Shown here in pieces: positions 4,476 through 40,770 of a DNA stretch of 64,000 bases. The stretch is from Bacillota bacterium. GTDB taxonomy: Bacteria > Bacillota > UBA994 > PWPR01. How positions within the stretch are numbered: the stretch's first letter is position 1; the number at the start of each line of letters is the position of its first letter. Made by a program: the position numbers and the translations under genes. The stretch spans positions 1-64,000 of the forward strand of contig JANQLZ010000090.1 in NCBI GenBank assembly GCA_028280325.1. Reading direction: 5' to 3'. Under the pieces are notes generated by a model that saw nothing but the letters and a program-made list of their open reading frames with translations, had not been told where the DNA came from and did no database searches.

Positions 4476-4482
4476 CGCAAAT

Positions 4483-4737
4483 CGGAGACTGCTGAAAAAG
4501 TCCGCTCTCTGCGTTCTTTTTAGGTTTGCTTTTAAGGTAGCGATTATTGTCAAATCGCTCGGTTCTTTGCGCACTCGGCATACTACCCCGTATAGTTTTG
4601 CGCAGAACCTAGCGCCTTAAAAACATTTTCAACAGCCTCCGAAAATGTAGCCATTTTCTTTACTGAAAATGCTATTATAGTCAATTCATTTTTCGGTGCA
4701 ATATACTTTTAAATTTGCTTTAAGCTTTTTCTGTACC
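4483..4737. repeat. Intergenic repeat element with terminal inverted repeats
   Basis: The left end CGGAGACTGCTGAAAAAGT (4483-4501) and the right end ACATTTTCAACAGCCTCCG (4623-4641) are inverted copies with 3 mismatches in 19, giving a 159-bp core. The 3' half of the core and about 95 bp beyond it are similar to 1-157. The element encodes no convincing protein. Size and inverted ends suit a MITE-like element or a decayed insertion-sequence end. It sits directly after rplS. Confidence 0.65.
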
Positions 4738-23500: not shown

Positions 23501-26500
23501 TAACCTAAGCCTTACACCAACCCCTGAAACAGCAGATTTCATGGAAATCAGCCAGGATATAACTTCCGAGGGAGGTAGTTTTGACAGGCAGCCAATAGTA
23601 TTCTTAAAGGATATATATGGCAACATAGCTACCGATGACAGTAGCACTCAAGTCACTGCTTCAAAAAAAGATCCCGACGTTGGTTATTGGTTACTGACAG
23701 GCACATCAACCATAACAGCAGTAAATGGGGTCATAACCTTTACAGACCTTGCCGCCGTAAATGGTCCTCAGATAGAAGGCGCCCAGATTGCCTTTAAGGC
23801 AACAGGTTTAGCAGAAGTATTAAGTGCAATGGTTACCTTACCGGTAAATACGGATTTTGAGGTAGATAACTATCTCTTTGCCTGGGGCAGCAATGGTAGC
23901 GCAGAAAGTCAGTTTGATAAGCCAAACAAAATGGCAGTGGATACTGCGGGTAATGTGTATGTAGCAGATACGAATAACAATCGAATCCAGAAGTTTAGTA
24001 CAGAAGGAGCTTATCTTACGCAGTGGGGAAGTGCTGGTAGTGCAGACGGTGAGTTTAGTACCCCACATGGAGTGGCAGTGGATGGTAAAGGTAATGTGTA
24101 TGTAGCAGATACAGGTAACAATCGAATTCAGAAGTTTAGTACAGAAGGAGTTTATCTTACGCAGTGGGGAAGTGCTGGCAGTGGAGATGGTCAGTTTGAT
24201 ACCCCTCTTGCAGTAGCAGTAGATGTTACAGGAAATGTGTATGTAGTCGATGCACGTAACTATCGAATCCAAAAGTTTGATTCAAGTGGAGCTTATCTTA
24301 CCCAGTGGGGTAGCGAAGGTAGTGCAGACGGTGAGTTAAATTACCCATCTGGAGTTGCAGTAGACGCTGTAGGAAATGTTTATGTGGCAGAAGTGGGCAA
24401 CCATCGAGTCCAAAAGTTTGATTCAAGTGGAAAATTTGATAAGAAGTGGGGCAGCTATGGAATCGGAAACGGTGAGTTCTATAGTCCATCTGGAGTTGGA
24501 GTAGATGTTGCCGGAAATGTTTATGTAACAGATCGTAATAATCATCGAATCCAAAAGTTTGATTCAAATAGAACTTATCTTACCCAGTGGGGTAGCCCTG
24601 GGAGCGGAGAGGGTCAGTTCAACAACCCAAACGGAATAGGAGTGGATACTGCAGGTAATGTTTATGTAGCAGAAGAAGATAACCAGCGAATTCAAAAGTT
24701 TGTTCCCTATATACCCCCAGAATATACAGCAGGTTACCCCAAGGTAGATTCGCCTGTAACAGAAGGGTTTGTTATAAGGGCCAGTATAAACGAAGCAGGA
24801 ACAGCCTACTATGTGATATTAGCAGATGGATCAGCTATGCCCAGTGTAAAGCAGGTAAAGGCTGGGCAGGACAGTGTGGGAGCCGGTGCGCTCAAAAGCG
24901 GAAACATGGCCCTGGAAGCAGATACAGAAAAAGCAGTAGTGGTGAATGGGCTGAGTGAAAACACAAACTATGATATATATATCGTTTGTGAGGACAGCAG
25001 TGGGGCAATACAGGAGGAAGCAGTGCAAAGAGATATTAAAACACTGGATAGCACAGCTTTTGCAGTAAAAAGCTATGTTTTTGATTCGGCATGGGGAAGT
25101 GAAGGCAATGCAAACGGCCAGTTCAAATACCCAACCTCAGTAGCGCTGGATGCTGCCGGAAATACATATGTAGTAGGCAGGAATAATCATCGAATTCAGA
25201 AATTTGATTCAAATGGGAACTTTATAAAGCAGTGGGGCAGCCATGGGAGCGGTAACGGCCAGTTCAAATACCCAACTTCAGTAGCACTGGATGCTGCCGG
25301 AAATACATATGTAGTAGATAGGAGTAATCATCGAATCCAGAAATTTGATTCAAATGGGGACTTTATGAAGCAGTGGGGAAGTGAAGGTAGTACAGACGGT
25401 CAGTTTGATGCCCCATTTGGAGTAGCAGTGGATGCTGTAGGAAATGTATATGTGTCAGAAATGGGCAACCATCGAATCCAAAAGTTTGATTCAAATGGAG
25501 ACTTTATTATGAAGTGGGGAGGCTATGGTAGTGCAGACGGTCAGTTTAGTTACCCATCTGGAGTAGCAGTGGATGCTGTAGGAAATGTGTATGTGGCCGA
25601 GTTTGATAATCGAGTCCAAAAGTTTGATTCAAATGGAATATTTATTACGAAGTGGGGAAGTGGTTCTACTGGTAGTGGGAATGGTCAGTTCAGTCACCCT
25701 CATGGAGTAGCAGTGGATGCTGCAGGCAATGTGTATGTGGCAGATTCATTTAACAACCGAATCCAAAAGTTTGATTCAAATGGAAATTATCTGATGAAGT
25801 GGGGAAGTGAAGGCAATGGAGAGGGTCAGTTCAATAGCCCAAATGGAGTAGCAGTGGACGTTACAGGAAATGTGTATGTGGCAGATGCCAATAACCATCG
25901 AATCCAAAAGTTTATTCCAAATCTACCGCCAGCATATACAGCAGATTACCCCAAGGTAGATACGCCAATAACAGAAGGATTTGTAATAAGGGCCAGTATA
26001 AACGAAGCAGGAACGGCCTACTATGTGGTATTAGCAGCTGGATCGACTATGCCAAGTGTACAGCAGGTAATGGCTGGGCAGGACAGTATGGGAGCCGGTG
26101 CAGTCAAAAGCGGAAACATTACCCTGGAAGCAGATACAGAAAAATCAGTGGTAGTGACCGGGTTGAGTGAAAATACAAACTATAATATATATATGGTTTG
26201 TGAGGACAGCAATGGGGCAATACAAGAGGAAGTAACGCAAAGAGATATTAAAACACTGGATACCGCAGTTTTTGCAGCACGTAGCTATATCTTTGATTCA
26301 GCATGGGGAAGCAATGGTAGTGCAGACGGTCAGTTCAATAACCCAAGTAGTATAGCAGTGGACGGTGCAGGAAATGTGTATATAGCAGATACCAATAAAT
26401 ATCGAATCCAAAAGTTTGATTTAGAGGGGAGATATCTAACTAGATGGGGAAGTGCTGGTAGTGGAGATGGTCAGTTTGATCAACCACACGGAATAGCAGT

Positions 26501-29500
26501 GGATGCTGGAGGAAATGTGTATGTAGCTGATACAGATAACTACCGAATTCAGAAATTTGATTCAAATGGAGCTTATCTTACGCAGTGGGGTAGCCATGGT
26601 AGTGGAGATGGTCAGTTTAATCTCCCAATTGCAGTAGCGGTAGACACTGCCGGAAATGTTTATGTATTAGATTCGAAAAACATCCGAATCCAAAAGTTTG
26701 ATTCAGAAGGTAATTATTTAACTAAATGGGGAGAATTTGGTGATGAGGATGGTCAGTTTAAGCTTCCACACGGAATAGCAGTGGATATTGTAGGAAATGT
26801 ATATGTGGCAGAATGGGAAAACCATCGAATCCAAAAGTTTGATTCAGAGGGAAAATATTTAACTAAATTGGGAAGTAAAGGCATAGAAGACGGTGAGTTC
26901 AGATACCCAAAGGGAGTTGGAGTGGATGCTGCCGGGAATGTTTATGTAGCAGATACACATAACAACCGAATCCAAAAGTTTGCTTCAGATCGGACTTTTA
27001 TTGCCAAGTGGGGTAGCCACGGTAGCGGAGATGGTCAGTTCGATTACCTAAATGGAATAGCAGTGGATACTGCCGGAAATGTGTATGTGGCAGATGGAGC
27101 TGCTAACCATCGAGTCCAAAGGTTTATTCCAAATCTACCTCCAGAATATACAGAAGGTTACCCCAAGGTAGATACGCCTACGCCAGAAGGTTTTACAATA
27201 AGGGTGAAAATAGACGAAGCAGGAACAGCCTACTATGTAGTATTAGTAGATGGAGCAGCTATGCCAAGTGTAGAGCAGGTAATGGCTGGGCAAGACAGTA
27301 CGGGAGCCGACGCAGTCAAAAGTGGAAATATGGCGCTGGAAGCAGTTACAGAAAAATCAGTGGTAGTTACCGGGCTGATCGAGGACACAGAATATGATGT
27401 ATATCTGGTTTGCGAAGGCAGCAGTGGAAATACCCAACATGACATAAGCCTGTATGATATAAAAACAGCTTTAAGTGATGGGGAAGCAGTAGTACGAGAT
27501 AAAGCAGCCCTTACAGAGGCGGTAATCAGGGGTAGTAACAGCTCAATAAATAACATAACTACCAACCTAAACCTTATCACAGCAGGAAGCAATGGAACAG
27601 CAATAAGCTGGTCCAGCAGCGAAGAAATATATGTGACAGTGTCAGGGGCTGTAAATAGACCAGCCTATGGAATAGGCGATAAAGAAATTTCCTTAACAGC
27701 AACAATAACAAAGGGAGCAGCCAGTGACACGAAAGCATTTGTAGTAACAGTAAAAGAACAGCTTCAGAGTGATGCACAGGCGGTAGCTGCGGATAAAGCA
27801 ACCCTTACAGAGACAGTTATCAGGGGTAGCAACAGCTCATTAAACAATATAACTACCAACCTAAACCTTGTTACAGCAGGAAGCAATGGAACAGCAATAA
27901 GCTGGTCCAGTAGTGAAGAAATATATGTGACACCATTAGGAGAGGTAAATAGACCAACCTATGGAGAAGGTGACAAAGAAATTACTCTAATAGCAACAAT
28001 AACAAAGGGAGCAGCCAGTGACACGAAGGCATTTGTAGTAACAGTAAAAGAAATGATTGACGACACACTTATGGCTACAGCAGAAGCCGATACACTGGAA
28101 CCTACTGTTGGAGCAGCCAATACCATCATATTGACCGTTAAGGATTCATTTGGTATGACAGATATAAGCTTTAGTGGGTCAAAGAATGTAATCATATCAG
28201 GTATTGAGGCAGCACCTAATGACACCTATGGACGTTTTAATGACATAGAGTTGGATGTAAACTCGAGGACAGGGCAGGCAATCAGTGTTACTTTTACAGA
28301 TGGTGTAGCCACTCCGTCCCTAAGCTTGAACAAAGCAGGTGCTCAAATTGTAGCCTTTAGTATAGAAGGGGTGACCCCGCCTGAAACCAATAATCTGAGT
28401 ATCACACCAACTCCTGGTACAGTAGATTTCATGGAACTGACTCAAAACATAACAGCACCGTTATCCAATGGGGGTAATTTTGATAGTCAACCCAAAGTCA
28501 CCTTAAAGGATGCCTATGGCAATATCTGCATTAATGACAGTAGCACTCAAATTACTGCTTCCAAAGAAGATACAGGAGATTGGGCATTGACTGGCTCCAC
28601 AACTGTAATAGCTGAGGATGGAGTGGCAAGTTTTACAGACCTTAGGGCCATCAATAATCCTCAGATAGACGATGCCCAGTTGGCCTTTAACGTAGGACTT
28701 ATAAAAGTAACAAGTGTTAAGGTGAGCTTACCGGCAGCAAATAGCTACACGGTGTCTTATCAACAAGGTGCCCATGGCAGCCTTAGCAGTAGCTCAGAAG
28801 TGGTCTATCATAATAGTTCTCCTGTTAATATTCCGACAGTGACTGCCGATGCTGGTTATGGATTTGCCTACTGGAGTAGCGATGGTGGGGAAAACAAGCT
28901 AACATCAACAGAACTGGCTTCAGAGACGATTACTGCTGATATCACTTTTACGGCCTATTACACCCAGGTACCAGTTATCGAATCAGCCGTTGCTGGTAGC
29001 AGAACTGTTGATTTGCACTGGAGTGGGGGAGAAGGGGCTACAGAATATAAGATATACCAGTCAACAGTATCAGGCTCCTATGGCGAAGTGCTGGCAAATG
29101 TAAATAGATCAGTACTTACCTATCAGGTAGCGGAATTGACCAATGGCACGACCTATTACTATGCAGTAACAGCTGTCACTTCCGAGGGTGAAACTCCGAA
29201 ATCTGTGGTAGTCAGTGCCATGCCGCTAGCTGGCGATCCGATAATGGCTTATCCTAAAATCACAACATTTGATTATGATTTTACTGGTATCAGGAGTATG
29301 GGAGTTGACAGCGAGGGTAACATCTATGCAGTTGATGGTGATAATGATCGTGTTATTATACTAGATTCAGAGGGCAATCATTCCATAACCTGGGACAATA
29401 CAACTTTGGAAGATTTAGATTTGCAGACCCCAATGGATATTGCCATAGATAATAACGACAATGTTTATATAGCAGATACCGTCAATAAAAAAATAAAAAT

Positions 29501-37367: not shown

Positions 37368-38042
37368 TTGAGAGATTTAACAAAATACGTAAATGCATTG
37401 TTCAAAAACTATCCTCTGACCCCACAGGTAAAAGACGCAAAAGAAGAAATACTCAGTAATTTAGAGGAAAAAGTTGCTGACCTGACCGCCAGCGGCATGA
37501 ATGATAAACAGGCAGTTGCCAGGGCAGTTGAAGATATCAGCGGCATTAATATTGAAGTTGAAGGTTATATTAAAGTTGACTTCGATAGATATCCGTTGGA
37601 GCTGTCTCAGCAAAACTTAATAAATTGCTTGATTGTCTGGATTTTGACAATTCCTTTCATGATAGTAGCTGCCGGAAGATATGTCAGCTATAGTATGCTG
37701 GCTGCAGCAATTTTATTGGGCATTTATTATTTCAGACTGCGGGCTAAAAGCCAGGGGCGGCCAGTTCCCACGGTTGTCAATCTGAGAAAAATAAATCGGA
37801 CTAAAAAGATAATCTGGATTCTCTGGACCATGTTAGTTGTCGCTCAGATTGTAACAGTTACTGCCGGGCAGTTTGGCAGCAATGTGTGGTTTGGCAGACC
37901 GATTATACTTAATGGCCCATATGCGCTGGCGTTATTGGTGGAAAGATATTTATTGCCGTTTTCTACAATTGTCATTCCATTGCATGCCAGTGCCTCAGCC
38001 AGGCTTGCCAAAAAACATCAGATAGGTGAAGATCATGAATAA
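37368..38042 (+). CDS. Membrane protein with N-terminal HAAS / permease-prefix domain
   Basis: The 224 residues start with a helical prefix (YVNALFKNYPLTPQVKDAKE, NDKQAVARAVEDISGIN). It is like the HAAS or DUF1700 domain commonly encoded next to PadR regulators. About four membrane helices follow. TTG 37368 is used with the strong RBS AAAGGAGG, 2 bp after padR. PadR-HAAS pairs are known, but their biochemical role is unclear. Confidence 0.78.
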   Translation: MRDLTKYVNALFKNYPLTPQVKDAKEEILSNLEEKVADLTASGMNDKQAVARAVEDISGINIEVEGYIKVDFDRYPLELSQQNLINCLIVWILTIPFMIVAAGRYVSYSMLAAAILLGIYYFRLRAKSQGRPVPTVVNLRKINRTKKIIWILWTMLVVAQIVTVTAGQFGSNVWFGRPIILNGPYALALLVERYLLPFSTIVIPLHASASARLAKKHQIGEDHE

Positions 38043-38598
38043 CAAACATAAAATTATCATCTCTTTAATTCTCATTGGAGTTATCGTCTTCAGTGCAGTT
38101 CAGTTAATAGTAGTGCCACGCTTGGAGAGAGAAAGAGAAGAATATGCCAAAAATCAACTGTCTCCAGCTTTGCATAGTTTGGAAAGTATACTCAATTACC
38201 AAAATAAATACATGGGTAACGCCTCAAATCTAAGCAATCTGTTTAACACCCTGCCGCTTAGCAATATTGATATGTCATTTCAGCTTTACCCGGATACCTT
38301 CAAGGCTGATGTCTACTACAAAGAAGCTACCGGGGCAATTGACAGTGATTTACTGAAGGGCTCACTGATCTATAATGCTACTGCAGCCTTTGCCTTAATC
38401 GATAACCTGCAAACAATTGACTTTATTTTTACAGGTAATAATTACTCAATAGACCGCAAGGTTGTTGAAGAATGGTATAAGTCAGCTGCCAGTTTATCTG
38501 ATTTGCTGACAGAAGAAGAGTGGACGTCTACTGTTCAGAAAAATCTAAACGATAATGAATATCTAAATAAGCTGTTTGCTGATTTTATTGGCGATTAG
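38035..38598 (+). CDS. Hypothetical single-pass membrane protein
   Basis: The 187-residue product has one N-terminal membrane helix (IIISLILIGVIVFSAVQLIV) and an extracytoplasmic alpha/beta part. I do not recognise a family. ATG 38035 follows GGTGAAG and overlaps the previous stop by 8 bases; GTG 38026 is an alternative. By position it is the third gene of the padR operon and is likely under the same control. Confidence 0.75.
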   Translation: MNNKHKIIISLILIGVIVFSAVQLIVVPRLEREREEYAKNQLSPALHSLESILNYQNKYMGNASNLSNLFNTLPLSNIDMSFQLYPDTFKADVYYKEATGAIDSDLLKGSLIYNATAAFALIDNLQTIDFIFTGNNYSIDRKVVEEWYKSAASLSDLLTEEEWTSTVQKNLNDNEYLNKLFADFIGD

Positions 38599-38644
38599 GG
38601 TTTATTTCTGATTACAGCAGAAGTGGGTTTACTTCGTAAACAGG

Positions 38645-38699
38645 TTAGCAATGGTTTGGCAATTGTAGGGCGATTGTAGGGCAATAGTTTGGCAGTTGT
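38645..38699. repeat. 11-bp tandem array A (5 units)
   Basis: Five contiguous 11-bp units: TTAGCAATGGT, TTGGCAATTGT, AGGGCGATTGT, AGGGCAATAGT, TTGGCAGTTGT. The period is exact and bases 4-9 are best conserved. A hairpin module follows directly. Confidence 0.8.
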
Positions 38700-38786
38700 G
38701 GGTTTACTTCGCAAGCGGGGTGGAATTGCTACGCAATTGGATTGGGCTTGCTTGTCAGCAAGCGGGGTGAATGTTACTTCGTAACA
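38700..38786. repeat. Hairpin module copy 1
   Basis: A series of short perfect hairpins joined by GGGGTG: AATTGC-TAC-GCAATT, GCTTGCT-TGTC-AGCAAGC (38747-38764) and ATGTTAC-TTC-GTAACAT (38769-38785). The block from GTGGGTTTAC to AGCAAGCGGGGTG recurs at 39401-39472. Confidence 0.75.
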
Positions 38787-38859
38787 TTGTTTATATACCG
38801 AGAAAAATGTAGTATTTACAACATAAAACCCCCAATGTTTCACTCCATTACAAGACTAT

Positions 38860-38980
38860 TGCGCCAAGCAGCCAAATACCCCAGGAAAAAACAATAATTC
38901 AGCTATCGTTCAAGCAATCGTTTAAACTATTGTTCAGCTATTGCAATAAACAATCGCCAAACTCTTGCAAGCAATCTAAG
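38860..38980. repeat. 11-12-bp degenerate array B
   Basis: Units include CAGCTATCGTT, CAAGCAATCGTT, TAAACTATTGTT, CAGCTATTGCA, ATAAACAATCGC and CAAACTCTTGCA. The period is 11 or 12 bp, with a core of the CWATYG type. It is less regular than arrays A and C. Confidence 0.6.
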
Positions 38981-39338
38981 TTGTAACATGGATCAATAGA
39001 AGTTTCAGGAGTTATCAAATGGGATTTATAAGCAAATCTATTTCGCAAGCCCTGTCTGGCAGGACTTGCTGATTCTTTGTTAACCTACAGTTGCGAGTGC
39101 CGATTCTTTGACGGAACAGGTCATTCGAGTTCTAGCTACTACCACTCTCAGATTTAATTATTATCTTGTATGCTTTTATGCTTTCAGTCTAAAGTCAAGA
39201 ACTGTCCCATCCTTGGAGGTATAATGGTACTTTATTTCCCGGTGGTTTTTATAGGTTGCTGGAGCTATGCTACGCTTGTTAAGGAGTTAGGTCTGCGTTA
39301 TTGTACGAGTCAATGTTGATATTTTGCTCCCACCCCGA

Positions 39339-39393
39339 TACAATTGCCAAACAACTGCCCAACAATCGCCAGCCTATTGCCCTACAATTGTTG
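39339..39393. repeat. 11-bp tandem array C (5 units, opposite orientation)
   Basis: Units TACAATTGCCA, AACAACTGCCC, AACAATCGCCA, GCCTATTGCCC, TACAATTGTTG. They are the reverse complement of the array A type (ACAATTGCCAA against TTGGCAATTGT). The second hairpin module follows 8 bp later. Confidence 0.8.
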
Positions 39394-39400
39394 TATGAAT

Positions 39401-39472
39401 GTGGGTTTACTGTGTAAACGGGGTGGAATTGCTACGCAATTGGTTTGGGCTTGCTTGTCAGCAAGCGGGGTG
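39401..39472. repeat. Hairpin module copy 2
   Basis: Near copy of 38698-38771. The first hairpin here is GTTTAC-TGT-GTAAAC, a true palindrome. In copy 1 the same place reads TTTAC-TTC-GCAAGC, a mismatched mix of two arm types. The GCTTGCT/AGCAAGC hairpin is unchanged. Confidence 0.75.
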
Positions 39473-39484
39473 CAGTTGGGCTTT

Positions 39485-39551
39485 ACGATTGCTGAACAAT
39501 AGCTGTAACAATGGTTTAACAATTGCTGGAACGATTGTTTTCTAATTGCAA
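39485..39551. repeat. 11-bp tandem array D (about 6 units)
   Basis: Units ACGATTGCTGA, ACAATAGCTGT, AACAATGGTTT, AACAATTGCTGG, AACGATTGTTT, TCTAATTGCAA. It has the same AACAATTG core as array C and directly follows hairpin module copy 2. Confidence 0.7.
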
Positions 39552-39726
39552 CCTTCATGAAATAAACAACGAATTGTATCATTAAGTCGAGGATCACAGA
39601 ATTGAGCCTATATCAAGGAATAGAAGAAATTTTCAGCAAGGATAATACGACTAGTATATCTTTGAGAAAATTTCTTCGTGTGACGCAGGAATAGGCTTAA
39701 TTATGGGAGTTCAGTAAGTTCGAAGC

Positions 39727-40770
39727 CTACTTACTAACGAGGTAGTAAAAAAGTAGCTGTGCAGTCTGCAACACACCTTCCCGGTGGGTACGCTCCATGG
39801 AATGAGAAGCGTGAACGCCCGGGCCGATTAAGGCATGCTTAATATTTGATCCGCTTCTAAGCGCTGCACTGGCATCAGAACCATAATGGGGAAAGATATC
39901 GACACAAAAATCAATATTGTGCTCCTTGGCAATTCCTTGTAGTTTTTTTCGCAGCTCATAGTCATAAGGTCCGCTGGAATCTTTAGCGCAGATTGTAACT
40001 TTTTCTTCGCTGCCTTTTAGCCCCTCTCCGATACAGCCCATATCTACTGCAACAAACTCCACTGTTTTTTCTGGGGTCCCATATGAAGCGCCGTGGCCAA
40101 CCTCTTCATAATTAGTGATAAAAATATTGACAGTATAGGGTAAGGTAATATTGGCTTCCTTAAGGTATTTGACTACCCCCAAGATGGTAGCGACATTAAC
40201 TTTGTCATCTAAATGACGTGATTTAATAAAACCGGAGTCTGTGACAACACAACGTGGGTCAAAAGCAACAAAATTTCCATTCTCAATACCCAAGGCCCGT
40301 ACTTCATCCGCTGATTTTACATTTTCATCTATTCTAACTTCCATGTTCTTTTCTTCACGAGCCAAAGTTCGTCCGTCTCTGGTGACATGGGTGCTTGGTT
40401 TGGTCAATAAAATCGTCCCGGTGTATTCCTGACTGTCATCAGTTATAATTGTACAATATTCGCCTTCAACAGAGTTCCACATGTAGCCGCCTATTGGAGT
40501 AAGCCGTAAATAGCCGTTGGACTTTATTTCTCTAACCATAGCTCCAAGGGTATCGATGTGGCCGGAAATTGTGCGCTGCTCTTCCTCATTAGTACCTTTT
40601 ATCGTGGCTATTAATCCACCCTTATTAGTAGTGAAAGACTCAACTCCTAAAGCTTTTAATTCATTTCTTACTAAATCAATAGCATTTTTGGTATAGCCGG
40701 TAACACTGGGGGTGTTTAATAGTTTTTCCATAAAATTAATAGTATATTGGGAATCAAATTCAAATTTCAT
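39727..40770 (-). CDS. M42 family metallopeptidase (glutamyl aminopeptidase/endoglucanase-like)
   Basis: This is the only minus-strand gene in the window. The 347 residues show the M42 metal-binding set: TISGHIDTLGAMV, SRHLDDKVNVATIL, NYEEVGHGASYG, AVDMGCIGEG, HYGSDASAAL and a final HASHSMERTHREGV. M42 enzymes form large tetrahedral aminopeptidase particles in the cytoplasm. The start has RBS AAAGGAG on the minus strand. It is divergent from dprA across 89 bp of AT-rich DNA that must hold both promoters. Confidence 0.93.
   Translation of the reverse strand: MKFEFDSQYTINFMEKLLNTPSVTGYTKNAIDLVRNELKALGVESFTTNKGGLIATIKGTNEEEQRTISGHIDTLGAMVREIKSNGYLRLTPIGGYMWNSVEGEYCTIITDDSQEYTGTILLTKPSTHVTRDGRTLAREEKNMEVRIDENVKSADEVRALGIENGNFVAFDPRCVVTDSGFIKSRHLDDKVNVATILGVVKYLKEANITLPYTVNIFITNYEEVGHGASYGTPEKTVEFVAVDMGCIGEGLKGSEEKVTICAKDSSGPYDYELRKKLQGIAKEHNIDFCVDIFPHYGSDASAALRSGSNIKHALIGPGVHASHSMERTHREGVLQTAQLLFYYLVSK

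Follow-up and report, generated by a model that had tools for sequence, protein, structure and literature searches.

A mosaic of degenerate tandem arrays and hairpin modules between convergent genes of a Bacillota bacterium, probably belonging to a lineage-specific interspersed repeat family

The intergenic stretch 38599-39726 of the window (the whole stretch of DNA that was analysed, 64,000 nucleotides of contig JANQLZ010000090.1, assembly GCA_028280325.1) is probably best understood as a mosaic of five modules, here called T1, T2, H, S and R, in which arrays of degenerate units form the variable-number tandem module of a lineage-specific interspersed repeat family. A function of the arrays in the host is not required by the data. 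The original prediction had placed arrays in both orientations in this region, which was borne out and is read here as a module mosaic inside a convergent gap. Its further suggestion of a single bent or nucleoid-binding locus was not sustained; instead, about 150 copies are dispersed across the sampled loci, in gene-end gaps and as part of mosaics with hairpin modules. The host genome measures 3.16 Mb, and the sampled loci are about 70 stretches taken around pattern matches.

Arrays and modules of the convergent gap

The gap spans 1128 bp between the convergent DUF4825 and M42 aminopeptidase genes, and all four predicted arrays, A to D, are present in it (Table 1). They are built from two types of unit, T1 in A and C (AACAATTGCC[A/C]) and T2 in B and D (GAACAATTGCTG, 11/12 bp), which do share the proposed core CAATTG, mostly with at most one substitution (CAACTG, CAATCG, CTATTG, CCATTG and others). 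In A and C, described as five exact 11-bp units, it is the spacing that is exact and not the sequence, the units being about 60-75% alike; identity at lag 11 amounts to 33/44 in array A and 27/44 in array C. These two are inverted copies of a single type (51 nt, 78% complementary), as had been noticed, and B and D, rightly seen as related, represent the second type and are also mutually inverted (52 nt, 71%), with a mixed spacing of 11, 12 and 13 bp. In array D, which begins right after H and in which up to seven cores can be counted from 39473, the clearer period is 23 (11+12), with an identity of 32/46. The + strand of array A is the G/T-rich, folding strand, and its unit is read on the - strand.

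Table 1. Features of the convergent gap and its flanking genes (window coordinates)
Feature	Coordinates	Strand	Description
DUF4825 protein gene	38026..38598	+	convergent flank (context)
Array A	38646..38701	-	T1 module, 5 units AACAATTGCC[A/C], exact 11-bp spacing
H module	38699..38771	+	three small hairpins
Array B	38889..38959	-	T2 module, ~6 units, 11-13-bp spacing
S module	39193..39330	+	~146 bp, AGTCAAGATCTGTCCC...
Array C	39338..39393	+	T1 module, 5 units, exact 11-bp spacing
H module, copy 2	39402..39478	+	
Array D	39483..39540	+	T2 module, 5-7 units, alternating 11/12-bp spacing
R module	39562..39714	+	~155-nt long hairpin, conserved internal-loop motifs
M42 glutamyl aminopeptidase gene	39727..40770	-	convergent flank

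The periodicity withstood the control with shuffled sequences: out of 1000 dinucleotide shuffles, none reached the maximum of the region at lag 11 or at lag 23. Taken by itself, lag 12 fell short of significance, being reached by 104 of 1000. Chains of at least four units, as recognised by a unit model whose training arrays include A-D themselves, arose in none of 200 shuffles.

The modules H, S (~146 bp) and R (~155 bp) were delimited by the BLAST coverage profile of the gap together with alignments. The three hairpins of H are of the types TTTAC-TTCG-TAAA, GGAATTGC-TA-CGCAATTGG and GGGCTTGC-N4-GCAAGCGGGG, while in this gap 12 bp separate the end of R from the M42 peptidase stop codon. A terminator and promoter scan of the gap gave results at chance level, and an Rfam search of the window and the gap returned no match above the gathering score, with only chance matches (E 3-4) in the gap.

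Other repeats were observed elsewhere in the window. At 23883-28052 a 141-bp unit is repeated in tandem about 6 times in each of three arrays, accompanied by a 294-bp duplication, and positions 4482-4708 and 1-76 carry a further dispersed repeat, intergenic and about 190-230 bp long (CTGCTGAAAAAGTCCGCTCTCTGCG ... CAACAGCCTCC); the latter has about 10 copies in the sampled loci, and a similar-looking sequence occurs in the congener (L137).

Dispersal, module junctions and distribution among genomes

Mapping the unit across the genome, as had been recommended, proved worthwhile: a two-unit pattern allowing at most 2 mismatches gave 157 matches, and the reversed pattern gave 0. In the sampled loci, which are biased in having been picked for carrying arrays or R and in which genes are plain ORF calls, we counted 82 T1 arrays, 68 T2 arrays, 46 H, 13 S and 133 R modules, and a reversed-sequence control yielded 7 small chains against 141 arrays. 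Arrays comprise 3-12 units, and the spacing from core to core peaks at 11, 12, 22-24, 33-36 and 44-48 bp.

The modules follow one another in a regular manner. S is succeeded by a T1 array within 4-11 bp in 8/11 cases, T1 abuts R at -3 to +1 bp in 11/24, with the T1/R junctions aligned, and H is followed by T2 or by reversed T1, either overlapping by about 9 bp or lying 5 bp apart; moreover, 47 of 48 R-R tandems share the same orientation. Within the arrays, unit variants recur in one order across many copies (e.g. CAACTG-CTATTG-CAATCG), which points to the copying of ancestral arrays more than to independent expansions. Once T1, T2, H, S and R had been masked, other hairpin repeats were still found in the same gaps. 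Contigs of this assembly (G000) frequently end at or close to repeat modules (e.g. C4, C7, C24, C52 and C115), so that the assembly appears to break at the repeats, whose copy number is likely underestimated.

In the sampled loci, arrays are present in 25 of 38 gaps between convergent genes, 24 of 144 between tandem genes and 4 of 54 between divergent genes (convergent versus divergent, Fisher p 5e-9). Selecting loci for arrays or R inflates these fractions in absolute terms, and it is the contrast between gap classes that is informative.

The distribution among genomes is narrow. The congener has no T1-like two-unit sites, and nearly all of 60 relatives lack them as well, three such sites in total being found in two distant genomes. 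S together with T1 occurs in this genome only among 15 genomes of the class, S being absent from the other 14. A strict three-unit pattern was likewise confined to this genome among 300 genomes of the phylum, with the reservation that it matches just 7 sites here, so that diverged arrays elsewhere could be missed. A looser three-unit pattern matches many unrelated genomes and is not specific; in viral contigs, 32 stretches matched it. Phage and plasmid searches gave no match, and the R pattern was not found in viral contigs.

R is more widely shared, with at least 55 copies in this genome and none in 59 other genomes, while the congener has 38 matches, a few of which are the opposite strand of the palindrome. 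Four other gene ends of the congener carry R or a fragment of it, and in each case the homologous gene here also has R nearby; this agreement is suggestive rather than proof, as R is enriched in the sampled loci. In the single syntenic gap that was compared end to end, where the DUF4825 and M42 orthologues keep the same gene order, the congener has 343 bp against the 1128 bp found here, and in these 343 bp a profile search found neither S nor H nor R, and visual inspection showed no array. R occurs in both species of the genus, while T1, T2, S and H turned up in this genome alone and therefore appear younger than R. The congener has different intergenic repeats of its own, of the GTAGGGGACGACC... 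and GGAACGCATGCAATGCGTTCCC types (L131, L139, L141), which suggests that repeat families turn over between species.

Folding of the modules and alternative explanations

Arrays outfold shuffled sequences on one strand, the reverse of T1 and the forward strand of T2. This is the starting point of a rather unlikely alternative, according to which the arrays are functional RNA hairpins of 3'-UTRs, rods of 11-nt units involved in RNA decay, termination or protein binding. Folding is clearly strand-specific, with a mean z of -2.98 +/- 0.20 (n=75) for the G/T-rich strand of T1 and +0.52 for its other strand, and with z of -2.2 and -1.9 for T2. The units would pair through their CAATTG cores and G.U linkers, long mixed arrays fold into near-perfect rods (L082 4634, L081 354), and inspection shows the T2 unit GCTGAACAATTG pairing with the reversed T1 unit CAATTGTTTGGC, two of the pairs being G.U. 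Furthermore, core variants on the folding strand are more often A-to-G changes, by which a wobble is kept, than T-to-C changes, and the natural order of T1 units folds slightly better than permuted orders (z -0.84 +/- 0.19).

Against this, the order of T2 units is unfavourable (+0.53), and exchanging arms between copies gave mostly null results: the arms of a copy pair no better with each other than with those of other copies in an aligned subfamily (z 0.15, p 0.55) or in T2 (p 0.32), and in T1 and T2 pooled they pair worse than permuted arms (z +3.1). The test was positive only for T1 split at midpoints (p 0.002), and complementarity between adjacent cores is mostly null. In tandem gene pairs the strand of the arrays shows no clear preference relative to gene direction (16:12 for T1, 6:13 for T2), and a palindromic core with G/T linkers accounts for much of the folding without selection. 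The mostly negative arm swaps thus indicate that foldability stems largely from the unit consensus, and a function as RNA keeps the standing of a hypothesis. Strand-specific folding of T1 and the modest effect of unit order do give a hint that the arrays may act as RNA and have not just accumulated passively.

A more specific proposal, which we regard as doubtful, is that the arrays encode a modular RNA in which each 11-nt unit makes one A-form turn and T2 pairs with reversed T1 by G.U wobbles. Judged by its length, the 11-nt unit would be a better match to one turn of A-form RNA than to B-DNA. If the proposal were true, the number of units would determine how long a handle of double-stranded RNA stands at the ends of genes, beside the strongly compensated R hairpin.

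Results for R are of another kind. Its arms pair at -46.5 kcal/mol with their own partners and at -28.7 when swapped (z -24.6), 32 of 45 consensus pairs have changes on both sides, and its loop motifs are nearly invariant. The distance from the end of R to a stop codon of the other strand is often 10-20 bp. It is a candidate genus-specific structured element, absent from Rfam, and possibly the more interesting element of the two when set beside the arrays. The fold-back of R, and perhaps that of the arrays, might instead reflect correction of quasi-palindromes by template switching during replication, and not selection on RNA. By such a process perfect hairpins can be both generated and preserved, with changes that look compensatory (PMC8794818), and the arms of R do fit their own partner far better than those of other copies. 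We nevertheless hold this explanation to be improbable, since template switching alone does not predict the near-invariant loop motifs, nor the presence of R near the same gene ends of two species in the four places compared, and it leaves the dispersal of the arrays unexplained.

Far less can be said for the arrays as DNA sites for a nucleoid or regulatory protein, bound once per helical turn between convergent genes. The constant core, the near-helical spacing and the scatter over gene-end gaps of the whole genome would agree with it, yet this reading is very unlikely. A spacing of 11 or 11/12 bp drifts from the 10.5 bp of B-DNA, T2 most, and the idea that a protein binds along one face of the helix, put forward originally, fits T2 poorly because its 11/12 alternation would drift round B-DNA. 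In addition, the company of hairpin modules and the ordered succession of units resemble copied elements, and arrays are absent from the congener, with which a housekeeping protein would probably be shared. CRISPR was also rejected, as the prediction had done, since it needs identical repeats and unique spacers and these arrays are degenerate, head-to-tail and without spacers. Chance periodicity or decayed coding repeats, to which the degeneracy of single units might lend some appeal, are refuted by the shuffled and reversed controls and by the intergenic location, and are practically negligible.

Relation to known repeats, spread and significance

The interspersed mosaic family that we favour, accreted in the gene-end gaps of this lineage, is closest in organisation to the BOX elements of Streptococcus pneumoniae, small intergenic interspersed repeats of the form boxA-boxB(n)-boxC (PMC3049150). 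In both, the modules include a tandem array whose copy number varies, boxB being the counterpart of the arrays; BOX elements have predicted stem-loops, cluster with other repeat families, and some copies lie at gene 3' ends (PMC3049150). As in BOX, module order is regular and the tandem module varies (the junction grammar and the 3-12 units per array described above). Differences are the tandem unit of 11-12 bp, the five module types and the strong preference for convergent gaps; moreover, no insertion-sequence terminal repeats were recognised here, short of a systematic search for termini or a matching insertion sequence.

REP/BIME and REPIN elements (GTAG/CGTC REPs, PMC3733652; REPINs, PMC3116915) are also dispersed, high-copy extragenic palindromic units or mosaics, and genes of the associated RAYT family exist in this genome. 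Four Y1/RAYT-family transposase genes were observed, at L142 (C109), L143 (C138), L144 (C149) and L087 (C75). However, none of them is flanked by T, H, S or R, three having no module in the fetched stretch and the fourth lying about 3 kb from the nearest one, and RAYT was rejected as the mobiliser. This genome has a REP-like motif, GGGGTCAGGCC, elsewhere in the sampled loci, and its sequence is a different one. STAR elements of Staphylococcus resemble the arrays as interspersed intergenic direct repeats that are numerous in some species and sparse in relatives, with loci that differ between species; they consist of 14-bp GC-rich motifs with 40-44-bp spacers (PMC3532100), whereas the arrays run head-to-tail at 11/12 bp. 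R recalls in kind the bcr1-bcr18 repeats of the Bacillus cereus group, which are likewise intergenic and limited to a narrow lineage; a predicted structure is conserved in some bcr families, and about half of the copies are transcribed (PMC3446304). Unlike them, R tends to occupy the strand opposite to that of the gene end closest to it, and it is seen near the same gene ends in two species.

From the observed dispersal, module grammar and location we infer how the family may spread and persist. Modules would spread by copying, through transposition by an enzyme acting in trans or through recombination between repeats, the number of units would shift through slippage or unequal exchange, and copies would survive chiefly at gene 3' ends, where genes and promoters are spared. 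Hairpins would form in any transcripts of the G/T-rich array strand, of H and of R, and may affect mRNA decay or read-through. Among the genes between or beside modules, ten were considered as mobilisers and rejected, being ordinary or unassigned, with no transposase. The congener does offer a syntenic gap free of modules, but no target-site duplication, terminal inverted repeat or mobilising gene has so far been recognised, and mobility is presumed.

A species-specific repeat family occupies most convergent gaps of the sampled loci; its module grammar is defined and a syntenic control is available, and it therefore offers a clean system for studying how bacterial mosaic repeats originate and how they spread when no transposase is evident. 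RNA hypotheses that can be tested come from the strand-specific folding of its tandem arrays and from the heavily compensated R hairpin next to them.
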